Assembly (NCBI GenBank): GCA_002685655.1
Contig: NYXM01000113.1
Location: 1-32,491 of the forward strand
DNA from: Planctomycetaceae bacterium
GTDB taxonomy: Bacteria > Planctomycetota > Planctomycetia > Pirellulales > Pirellulaceae
Length of the DNA stretch: 32,491 nt
Reading direction: 5' to 3'
In this document: piece after piece, positions 98 through 17,577 of the stretch
Layout of the letters: every line of letters starts with the position of its first letter
Position numbering within the stretch: the stretch's first letter is position 1
Made by a program: the position numbers and the translations under genes
The notes under the pieces: model-generated
Seen by the model: only the letters and a program-made list of their open reading frames with translations
Database searches by the model: none
What the model was told of the DNA's origin: nothing

Positions 98-203
98 AAA
101 TGAGTCAAATTCTTAGCGACGGGCACTGACCGCAGGTTGGTCGGAGCGCGGGTCACCGCAACGGAGCGATGGCTCGCGTTGGTCTGAGGCACAGCCTCGC
201 TAG
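98..203. repeat. Dispersed structured repeat, copy A (three potential hairpins)
   Basis: This segment matches 14303-14408 without gaps: 77 of 90 bases over the core 114-203, with weaker similarity upstream. The potential hairpins are CTGACC/GGTCGG around a 7-base loop (126-143), GAGC/GCTC with loop GATG (164-175) and TGAGGC/GCCTCG with loop ACA (185-199). An outer pairing TAGCGA (114-119) with TCGCTA (197-202) is possible as an alternative to the third hairpin. The right end overlaps the stop codon of the DUF1501 gene (200-202). No protein is supported here. Insertion-type (MITE/REP-like) and structured-RNA explanations are both open. Confidence 0.75.
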
Positions 204-14220: not shown

Positions 14221-14302
14221 GGCAGCTGGCGCGCGCTGCGTGCACTGCGACTTGTGTCCCAACTTGTCCGCACTAGAAGGCTTGTATCTGGTTGTTCTTT
14301 AG

Positions 14303-14408
14303 ATATGAGCCAAGTCTCTAGCGACGGGCACCGACCGCAGGTTGGTCGGGGAGCAGGTCGCCACAATCGAGCGATAGCTCGCGCCGGTCCGAGGCACAGC
14401 CTCGATAG
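14303..14408. repeat. Dispersed structured repeat, copy B (three potential hairpins)
   Basis: This is the second copy of the element at 98-203, in the same orientation, about 86% identical over the 90-base core. Its hairpins are CCGACC/GGTCGG (14331-14348), CGAGC/GCTCG with loop GATA (14368-14381) and CGAGGC/GCCTCG with loop ACA (14390-14404). In the first and third hairpins it has C-G pairs where copy A has T-G pairs, so pairing is preserved by the change. It ends about 100 bp upstream of the nirBD start. Confidence 0.75.
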
Positions 14409-14454
14409 TTGCGTGCGCTGACGGTCACTCGATGTTTCAAGTCAATCCCAAGAG

Positions 14455-14508: not shown

Positions 14509-17500
14509 ATGATCACCAAGAACGCTGAGACGATTGTCGTAATCGGCAACGGAATGGTCGGCCATCGTTTCTGCGAAAAACTCGTCGAATTCGACGAGTC
14601 GAGACATTACCGAATCATCACGTTTTGCGAAGAACCGCGGGCCGCCTACGACCGCGTCGGGCTGACTTCGTTCTTCGCCCATCGCGACGCCGAGAAACTG
14701 ATGTTGGCGAATCTCGAGTGGTACCGGCGCAACGGCGTCGATATTCATATTGGAGATCGAGCCAATCGCATCGACCGAAAGCAACGGATCGTGCACTCAG
14801 ACAATGACCGGTCGATCGCGTACGACCACGTGGTGCTGGCCACAGGCTCATACCCCTTCGTGCCGCCGATCGAAGGCGTCAAGCTGCGCGGCGTCTTTGT
14901 TTATCGGACCATCGAAGACCTGCAACGAATCATGGCGTTCGGGAAAAAGGTCCGGTGCGCTGCCGTGATCGGTGGCGGCCTACTGGGGCTCGAAGCCGCC
15001 AAAGCCACCTACGATTTGGGCCTTGAAACGCATGTGATTGAATTCGCGCCGCGGTTGATGCCCCGACAGGTCGATGATGCCGGTTCGCGACTGCTCGTCC
15101 GCGAAATCGAAAACTTGGGTGTTCGAGTCCACTTGAACAAGGCGACCAAGGAGATTCAGGGTGACGGTCGTGTCCAACGGATGGTCTTCGTGGACGACGA
15201 AGTCCTGGACGTCGACATGATCATTATTTCGGCCGGCATCCGTCCGCGTGATGAACTCGCGCGTGATTGCGGCATTGACGTGGGCCAGCGAGGTGGGGTG
15301 ATCGTCAACGACACCCTGCAAACCTCGGATCCTAGCATCTTCGCCATCGGCGAAGTCGCCTTGCACGACAGTATGATCTACGGCCTGGTCGCACCAGGCT
15401 ACGAGATGGCTGAAATCGTAGCCGGCAATCTCTGCGACCGGCAGATGTCATTCACCAGCAGCGACCTATCGACGAAACTGAAATTGATGGGTGTGGATGT
15501 TGCCAGCTTCGGAGACTACGAAGCCGGCCCCGAACGCGCACAACCGCTGCTCTATGAAGATCCGTTTGGTGGAGTTTACAGGAAGCTGTTGTTCGATCTG
15601 AGCGGGACACGGTTGCTAGGCGGCGTCTTGGTGGGTGATGCCGCGGACTACGCCCTTCTGTCAGCACTGGCCAAGAACCCGGATCCCCTCCCCTGTGCTC
15701 CGGGCATTTTGATCGCCGGAAGCGGCGGCGGCGGTGCGTTGGGTGCGGATTCAATCTCCGATGACGGACAAGTCTGTTCCTGTAACAACGTCACCAAGGG
15801 CCAGATCTGTGCGGCGATTCGCGATAACAACCTCGTGACGCTTGGCGATGTCAAGGCATGTACCCAAGCCGGCACAGGGTGTGGCGGATGCGTGCCTTTG
15901 CTGACTGATATTCTCAACACGGAACTTGTGGCGGCCGGCAAAACGGTCGACATGGACTTGTGCGAACACTTCGCCTACACACGTCAAGAGCTGTTCGAGA
16001 TCGTCCAGGTGAAACAAATCCGAAACTTTGAGGCGTTGATCCACAGCCACGGCAGGGGCGACGGTTGCGAGATTTGCAAGCCCACAGTGACTTCGATCCT
16101 GGCAAGCCTCTGGAACGAACAAATCACCGAACCCACGCATTGGACGTTGCAAGACACCAACGATCGATTTCTGGCCAACGTGCAGCGCGGCGGCCTGTAT
16201 TCCGTAGTTCCTCGAGTGCCCGGCGGTGAGATCACACCCGATAAACTGATAACGCTCGGTCGCGTCGCGAAGAGGTTTGGTCTGTACACCAAAATCACGG
16301 GCGGTCAGCGTGTCGATCTGTTTGGCGCGCAGGTTCAGCAGCTGCCCGCGATCTGGGAAGAACTGGTCAACGCCGGATTCGAAAGTGGCCATGCTTACGG
16401 TAAATCGCTGCGGACGGTAAAGAGCTGCGTTGGGACGACTTGGTGCCGGTACGGTGTCCAGGACTCGGTAGGCTTTGCGATCCGCCTGGAACAACGTTAC
16501 CGAGGCATCCGTTCTCCACACAAAATGAAAATGGCCGTTTCCGGCTGCATTCGGGAATGTGCCGAGGCACAGTGCAAAGATATCGGACTGGTCGCCACGG
16601 AGAACGGCTACAACTTGTACGTCGGTGGAAATGGCGGGGCAAAACCACGACACGCCGAGATGCTGGCCACGGACATCGACGAGGCGACGGCGGTCAAGTA
16701 CATCGACCGGTTCATGATCTACTATATTCGCACGGCCGACAAACTGGCGCGGACGGCTGTTTGGCTTGAGAATTTGGAAGGCGGCATCCAACAGCTGAAG
16801 AACGTCGTGATCGAAGACAGCCTCGGCCTCTGTGAAGAACTCGAAACACAAATGCAGTACCTCGTCGATACTTACAAATGCGAATGGAAGGAGGTCGTCA
16901 ACGATCCCGAAAAATGCAAGTTGTTTCGCCAATTCGTTGACACGGACGAAACCGAGCAAGGCATCGAAGTCGTGGCCGAACGGAATCAACGACGGCCAGC
17001 CGACTGGCCGAAGGACTTCGTGCCAATTTCCGATCTTGGATCGTATGTCGGCGCGCCGGACGGCGGTTTGCCAGGCGGCGCCCTCGATCCACCTCCGCCC
17101 ACTGACGATTCAAATCCGCCACGCCCGTCCCTCAAGAAATGGGTCAACGTCGGCAGAACGGCGGATTTCCCCGAGAATGGTGGTGCCGCGATCAAGTACG
17201 GCAAAGTGCAGATCGCCGTCTTCAACTTCACCAGCCGAGGTCAGTGGTATGCCTGCCAAAACATGTGCCCACACAAGAACGCGTTTGTGCTCTCTCGCGG
17301 CATCGTCGGCAGCGCGGGAGAGGCCCCCAAGATTTCCTGCCCGTTGCACAAAAAGCCCTTCTCGTTGCAAACCGGCGAGTGCCTGTCGGGTGACGACTTT
17401 TCCATCAAGATCTTTCCGGTGAGAATCGATGGCAACGCAGTGTTGGTGGAGTTGCCGCCGCAAATACAGCTGGACGCACTGCTCGCCACGCAACGGCACT

Positions 17501-17577
17501 GCGTGGGTGCGTGCGACACCATAGCCAACGCTGTGGCCGACCATGCAGGCGAAGTCACTGAAATGCAGACCACATAG
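14509..17577 (+). CDS. nirBD: NADH-dependent nitrite reductase, NirB-NirD fusion
   Basis: This 1022-residue protein reduces nitrite to ammonium in the cytoplasm using NAD(P)H. It has an N-terminal FAD domain (VVIGNGMVGHRF), an NAD-binding fold near 150 (AVIGGGLLGLEAA), BFD-like [2Fe-2S] cysteines around 420-465 (VCSCNN, then GCGGC) and a further Cys pair near 520 (GCEICKP). The siroheme/[4Fe-4S] cysteines follow: CVGTTWC near 639 and CIREC near 678. A Pro-rich linker (about 845-868) joins a NirD module with Rieske-type ligands CPHK and CPLH. NirD is usually a separate small subunit, so this is a natural fusion. The start ATG follows GAGG by four bases. The upstream spacer carries repeat copy B and a dyad. 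No nitrate reductase or transporter gene is in the window. Confidence 0.95.
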   Translation: MITKNAETIVVIGNGMVGHRFCEKLVEFDESRHYRIITFCEEPRAAYDRVGLTSFFAHRDAEKLMLANLEWYRRNGVDIHIGDRANRIDRKQRIVHSDNDRSIAYDHVVLATGSYPFVPPIEGVKLRGVFVYRTIEDLQRIMAFGKKVRCAAVIGGGLLGLEAAKATYDLGLETHVIEFAPRLMPRQVDDAGSRLLVREIENLGVRVHLNKATKEIQGDGRVQRMVFVDDEVLDVDMIIISAGIRPRDELARDCGIDVGQRGGVIVNDTLQTSDPSIFAIGEVALHDSMIYGLVAPGYEMAEIVAGNLCDRQMSFTSSDLSTKLKLMGVDVASFGDYEAGPERAQPLLYEDPFGGVYRKLLFDLSGTRLLGGVLVGDAADYALLSALAKNPDPLPCAPGILIAGSGGGGALGADSISDDGQVCSCNNVTKGQICAAIRDNNLVTLGDVKACTQAGTGCGGCVPLLTDILNTELVAAGKTVDMDLCEHFAYTRQELFEIVQVKQIRNFEALIHSHGRGDGCEICKPTVTSILASLWNEQITEPTHWTLQDTNDRFLANVQRGGLYSVVPRVPGGEITPDKLITLGRVAKRFGLYTKITGGQRVDLFGAQVQQLPAIWEELVNAGFESGHAYGKSLRTVKSCVGTTWCRYGVQDSVGFAIRLEQRYRGIRSPHKMKMAVSGCIRECAEAQCKDIGLVATENGYNLYVGGNGGAKPRHAEMLATDIDEATAVKYIDRFMIYYIRTADKLARTAVWLENLEGGIQQLKNVVIEDSLGLCEELETQMQYLVDTYKCEWKEVVNDPEKCKLFRQFVDTDETEQGIEVVAERNQRRPADWPKDFVPISDLGSYVGAPDGGLPGGALDPPPPTDDSNPPRPSLKKWVNVGRTADFPENGGAAIKYGKVQIAVFNFTSRGQWYACQNMCPHKNAFVLSRGIVGSAGEAPKISCPLHKKPFSLQTGECLSGDDFSIKIFPVRIDGNAVLVELPPQIQLDALLATQRHCVGACDTIANAVADHAGEVTEMQTT

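Follow-up and report, generated by a model that had tools for sequence, protein, structure and literature searches.

The two similar segments, A and B, of the 32,491-nt stretch of planctomycete DNA analysed here (the window) belong to a dispersed, non-coding repeat family with a unit of approximately 105-130 bp. They are probably copies of a short piece of mobile DNA, approximately 105 bp in length, that is non-coding and non-autonomous and has spread through a group of planctomycetes. Both copies carry a second, much smaller unit nested within them, which occurs at other sites in related genomes and is treated separately below.

The repeat pair, its family and its dispersal

Copies A (100-203) and B (14305-14408) have the same orientation and share 83% identity over 104 nt without gaps, which confirms the recurrence of a 106-base segment in the original prediction. 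The pair is the longest repeat in the window, the remaining direct repeats listed being 25-31 nt long. The limits had to be corrected, as the boundary tetranucleotide had been counted into the right ends and copy B begins further upstream than was proposed (Table 1). By eye, the 5' part of B (GGCTTGTATCTGG...) is like the start of the copies in genome G062; the 5' part of A upstream of approximately position 98 is diverged or lost.

Table 1. Features of the two repeat copies in the window.
Feature	Position	Strand	Remarks
Copy A of the repeat family	98..199	+	83% to B over 104 nt; match of covariance model R1 at 148-206, E 5e-5
Nested mini-hairpin in A, GGGCACTGACCGCAGGTTGGTC	121..142	+	Missing here in the aligned copies of relatives; found at other sites in relatives
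Family hairpin 2 in A, GAGC-GATG-GCTC core, foot G.G broken	163..176	+	Alignment A6, columns 52-65
Family hairpin 3 in A, GAGGC-ACA-GCCTC	186..198	+	Alignment A6, columns 77-89
3' boundary CTAG of A	200..203	+	Position equals the right-hand CTAG of 23/27 scored G062 copies
5' boundary CTAG of B	14273..14276	+	Position equals the left-hand CTAG of 21/27 scored G062 copies
Copy B, full length, ~106 bp plus nested unit	14277..14404	+	Match of R1 at 14349-14411, E 1.9e-6
Nested mini-hairpin in B, GGGCACCGACCGCAGGTTGGTC	14326..14347	+	In place of CAAC of unoccupied copies, e.g. L232
Family hairpin 2 in B, CGAGC-GATA-GCTCG	14368..14381	+	Alignment A6
Family hairpin 3 in B, GAGGC-ACA-GCCTC	14391..14403	+	Alignment A6
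3' boundary ATAG of B	14405..14408	+	Position matches CTAG/CTAC/CTGT of other copies

BLAST searches with copy A in 16 related genomes mainly returned its 5' 25-30 nt, i.e. the nested unit, and longer relatives of the rest of the copy were found in genome G005. After alignment of A and B with 31 copies found in five genomes, one common architecture was visible: a 5' stretch precedes a conserved block (AGCGACCAACGGGAGCGGG), which is followed by hairpin 2 and, near the 3' end, by hairpin 3. What had been described as hairpin 1 of the element is actually the separate nested unit. A covariance model (R1) was built from 14 copies of four genomes, with the window sequence excluded, and a search of this type, as proposed in the original prediction, picked A and B and nothing else from the window at E values up to 10. 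Matches at E up to 0.01, some of them weak, were obtained in 17 of 98 relatives of G005, and at least 41 scored candidates each were present in genomes G024, G055 and G062. The G062 subfamily is the nearest to the window by eye, and copy L232 resembles B minus the nested unit. An exact-pattern scan of genome and viral contigs for the initial 29-31 nt of the core gave no match. The family itself is undescribed in the literature searched, which covered few subscription journals and held no account of it; its kind, small palindromic mobile DNA, is already known.

A 77-nt probe from the 5' part was located at no fewer than 42 places in G062 with 88-100% identity (40 of 107 candidates were scored). 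The 29 copies viewed in this genome share their start position. At least five of them (L369, L371, L376, L380 and L386) are preceded by another copy or by the 3' end of one, and the others by different flanks. Part of the spread thus took place by tandem duplication, and tandem copies of approximately 109-111 bp are also present in G024. Open reading frames of at least 120 aa contain 18 of 64 copies compared with 214 of 249 random positions (nine of the 73 copies, with flanks shorter than 500 nt, are not in this count), and the strands of the flanking genes (13/15/9/8, one undetermined) revealed no bias in orientation. The mostly intergenic placement and unbiased strands fit non-autonomous mobile DNA better than a gene-linked RNA. 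For the family element as a whole no unoccupied site was found, the matches of 80 nirB loci covering the gene or another block. With no before/after pair found, the claim of mobility rests on the dispersed flanks.

The window encodes at 14509-17577 a nirB-like nitrite reductase with a C-terminal Rieske-type domain according to Pfam, which looks like a NirB-NirD fusion. The best full-length matches of this 1022-aa protein, with 75%, are in Planctomycetota contigs (L001, L005), and a partial match of 86% is found in a MAG labelled 'bacterium'. Another block at approximately 13627-13784 matches L013 at 75% and L064 at 90% over 53 nt.

The nested 22-nt unit

The nested unit has the form GGGCACC-stem-GNA-stem-GGTC and a length of approximately 22 nt. 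Its foot (GGGCACC...GGTC) is constant, the upper stem is variable yet complementary, and the GNA loop is usually closed by C-G. As a DNA hairpin loop, C(GNA)G has unusually high stability. The window copies both have GGGCACYGACCGCAGGTTGGTC in place of the CAAC of unoccupied family copies. Because its place is equal in A and B, the unit probably reached the family before these two were copied.

Allowing one mismatch, GGGCACCGACCNNNGGTTGGTC was found in 17 of 196 relatives with up to 32 copies per genome, compared with three matches in total for the reversed-pattern control. Exact forms were present in one of 294 evenly drawn planctomycetes (G005) and in two IMG/VR contigs. When the upper stem was loosened (GGGCACCNNNNGNANNNNGGTC), 70 of the 196 genomes gave matches against about 39 for the control, so that many of the single matches are due to chance. 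Genomes rich in copies have stems of their own. The loosened pattern matched 38 times in G008, where the stem ATCC/GGAT was seen in 16 of the 20 matches listed, and the upper stems GTGC/GCAT and GCGC/GCGT recur in other genomes. The arms were compared in at least 82 distinct 22-mers, copied by hand from the matches listed: 18 of 71 distinct arm combinations are fully paired, several of them one step apart or possibly chance, against 3.0 in shuffles (maximum 9 in 2000). C-G closes the GNA loop in 14 of these 18, the G and A of the loop being fixed by the search pattern. As a separate observation, the nested hairpin of G008 (L317, L328-L345) lies within a shared imperfect palindrome in 12 of 14 copies shown, with GGGGACTGTCCC...TTTGCG on one side of the shared repeat and CAAAATGGGACTGTCCCC on the other.

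In relatives, the nested unit substitutes for approximately 4-9 nt inside tRNA genes, including anticodon loops. For 16 of the 21 copies at tRNA-array loci, an uninterrupted homologue could be aligned over the tRNA gene (11 good alignments with scores of 90-114 and five weak ones of 70-83); three others aligned to the neighbouring tRNA only and two were unmatched. A part of the loop, GTGAA, is replaced in tRNA-His (L151 versus L137) and approximately TTAGAA in the tRNA-Leu(tag) of two genomes (L116 and L154 versus L109), while further replacements are located in D arms and variable regions. Several of the genes carrying the unit were called by ARAGORN as tRNA-??? with a four-base anticodon. 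The equal replacement of tRNA-Leu in G005 and G062, and of tRNA-His in G129 and G158, argues against an assembly error. A transposase-like gene, presumably IS110-like, also contains the unit, in place of the TCAA of its paralogue in the same genome (L400) and of a relative (L399), a replacement of 4-5 nt. Unoccupied sites of the nested unit are represented by family copies without it, by the tRNA homologues and by L400 and L399.

The tRNA arrays (L116, L120, L137, L141, L142, L154, L109 and L261) are dense and, across several genomes, partly similar in isotype order. L261 is a 94-kb predicted viral contig with 25 tRNAs called within 11 kb. Some of the array tRNAs carry inserts, among them a second palindromic type (L100, approximately 1044-1082).

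For the flanks of the nested unit, a mean complementarity of 7.23 was calculated against 6.17 for swapped flanks (sd 0.19), in 78 distinct contexts among 96 copies; the set comprised 97 copies at three or four of four upper pairs, some of them likely chance, from which one without flank was omitted. A preference of the unit for palindromic targets was considered on this basis and rejected: the complementarity is raised on average but weakly, and two of the 78 single contexts (L262 and L365, both at the centre of long palindromes) exceed the 99% swapped-flank threshold.

It is conceivable, and we propose it tentatively, that the nested unit is a mobile DNA element itself, among the smallest proposed, swapping in for a few bases and often doing so at hairpin loops. 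If true, it would have taken the place of tRNA anticodon loops within tRNA gene arrays. A somewhat less likely explanation is that the unit is not self-mobile and has originated again and again during replication, through template switching or through copying between stalled hairpins, a process compatible with the other readings. The replacement of bases where an addition could have been found, the slightly higher complementarity of true over swapped flanks and the negative search for a linked transposase (see below) are in line with such an origin. However, the foot stays constant from genome to genome and the changes of the upper stem are compensated, a pattern that suggests recognition by a protein; the number of distinct contexts among the copies also speaks against template switching.

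Element boundaries and the candidate mobilising enzyme

CTAG borders the 27 scored G062 copies on the left in 21 cases and on the right in 23, and the tetranucleotides on both sides are equal in 20. Four copies deviate on the left only, two on the right only and two on both sides (CTAT/CTAT in L375 and CTCG/CTTG). One of 30 loci was omitted from the boundary views as it had too little flank, and two of the 29 copies have no scored right tag (L379, CTAG by eye, and L377, with a different 3' end). With both sides taken together, the boundary tetranucleotide is specific to the subfamily, being mostly CTAC in G017, CTGT in G055 and CTAG in G062. Among boundaries read by hand in six genomes, left and right matched exactly in 16 of 35 copies compared with 10.3 in shuffles (p 0.002); these 35 out of 44 copies were 8/9 of G017, 2/5 of G001, 2/3 of G013, 2/4 of G005, 9/11 of G055 and 12/12 of G062, the ends of the rest being unplaceable. 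In the loci L368-L397 of G062, CTAG occurs at 0.82/kb with the family's own copies included, and is thus approximately four-fold rarer than the 3.5/kb expected from base composition.

Equal tetranucleotides on both sides, including the CTAT pair of L375, and the excess of exact left/right matches are what favours a different origin of the family, as a MITE-like element derived from an insertion sequence whose DDE transposase duplicates a 4-bp CTAG-like target, in place of an IS200/REP-like single-strand element. We regard this origin as the less likely one: no terminal inverted repeats were apparent on reading the copies, and the deviations in G062 are mostly one-sided, with a single identical and a single unlike double deviation against the six others.

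On the favoured reading, the element inserts beside CTAG-like tetranucleotides, and its terminal hairpin stands directly before a tetranucleotide of the same kind. The joint change of the boundary tetranucleotide on both sides and the hairpin immediately in front of it recall IS200/IS605 and REP elements. Both the family element and the nested unit may be recognised as single-stranded DNA hairpins, and an IS200/IS605-type transposase (Y1, REP-associated) that acts in trans would be the most likely agent, although this is a guess. In 40 loci with Y1 genes (PF01797), neither the nested unit (up to four substitutions) nor the core block of the family (up to three) was detected, and R1 gave a best E value of 0.19 on 20 of them. 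Single short hairpin-like motifs were seen at the Y1 loci L270 and L299. A scan for a hairpin plus tag in 33 of the 40 loci resulted in 12 matches compared with about 10.7 in shuffles, the positive control being 23 of 30 family loci. PF01797 is present in 151 of 193 relatives, and for this reason a contrast in Y1 presence (14 of 15 versus 0 of 5 genomes) was dropped as uninformative.

Conserved hairpins and relation to known elements

Hairpins 2 and 3 of the family are kept by compensatory changes. In alignment A6, containing 73 copies, 95.2% of 729 pair cells were standard pairs. Two of the 73 copies of relatives (L255 and L253) had been dropped from it since they lack the anchor motif, both window copies had been added, and the rows of L248 and of the second L231 copy are only partial. 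Both sides were changed in 69 cells, whereas shuffles gave 19.6 and slid structures 7-14 such cells, and the covariation score was 0.314 versus 0.112; the copies are related to each other, and these shuffle comparisons are therefore not probabilities. Doubly changed pairs were not more numerous than in shuffles, at five against 4.2 (five was reached by 100 of 500). Examples are pairs with C-G in 51 copies and G-C in 18, A-T in 50 and T-A in 17, and C-G in 51 and A-T in 15. The covariation test put forward in the original prediction has thus given double-sided changes in two hairpins, and the keeping of these hairpins is supported, on the basis of the 73 aligned copies and not of the window pair; the support does not extend to an RNA role. 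The T-G to C-G differences reported for hairpins 1 and 3 were found again, at T127 (A) versus C14332 (B) and at the foot of hairpin 3 at T185 versus C14390 (positions counted by hand). The statement that A and B differ exactly where pairing is kept was too strong, as the foot of the middle hairpin is C-G in B and G163.G176 in A, an uncompensated change (A6 columns 52/65).

That the family represents a structured non-coding or cis-regulatory RNA duplicated in the genome is highly improbable: it would agree with the compensatory changes in two hairpins and with the window copies, which fold somewhat better than shuffles when the nested unit is included (z -1.3 to -2.7, both strands), but the covarying columns would be equally expected of a DNA hairpin, five copies of relatives are no more stably folded than shuffles (z -1.2 to +0.6), the orientation to neighbouring genes is unbiased, copies occur in tandem and, closely similar to one another, at many dispersed places, and a foreign unit is located inside both window copies. 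The folding values together indicate that short hairpins are kept in a family without unusual overall RNA stability. The Rfam covariance models gave no match in the window at the gathering score, and in six loci of relatives they identified only tRNAs, all in L154. The RNA option of the original prediction is unsupported by these results, and its alternative, an inserted element present in several copies, is to be preferred.

Compared with the cyanobacterial very small mobile repeated elements, units of 20-odd nt inside other repeats, the nested unit has a constant foot, an upper stem that covaries, and a loop of the form GNA. The family as a mobile element can be set beside three other systems, each as described in one article (PMC3733652). 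Like the REP GTAG superfamily, it consists of small palindromes in many copies, with families by genome, and the 3' end of the G017 subfamily reads on the other strand as GTAG followed by a stem-loop. REPs are also found inside palindromes and inside ORFs (PMC3733652). Unlike REPs, the family has two kept hairpins and a unit of approximately 105 bp, of which only the 3' hairpin has the REP size of 20-40 bp. Most G017-type ends fit the GTAG tag, with CTAC after hairpin 3, whereas copy A with its CTAG and copy B with its ATAG do not, and CTAG or CTGT are found in other subfamilies. The association of REPs with RAYT (Y1) genes was not seen here, with 0 of 40 Y1 loci carrying the nested unit or core block. 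MITEs are 70-300 bp long and have terminal inverted repeats of 15-30 bp and no coding capacity (PMC3733652). The family resembles them in size, in being non-coding and dispersed mostly between genes, and in the equal short direct repeats at many ends, but differs by its conserved internal hairpins and by copy ends that, read by eye, have no apparent terminal inverted repeats. Rickettsia palindromic elements (PMC3733652) are likewise palindromic inserts within genes, whereas the nested unit, no longer than approximately 22 nt, takes the place of bases and is located in tRNA genes.

With its boundaries, hairpins, subfamilies and target tetranucleotide defined, the repeat family is now testable. 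The nested unit raises the questions of how a 22-nt hairpin replaces its target and does not interrupt it, and of the fate of tRNAs whose anticodon loop was taken over. A transposase, if one is responsible, would here carry out an unusual reaction on single-stranded hairpins; otherwise, the nested units would be a natural record of hairpin-driven template switching.
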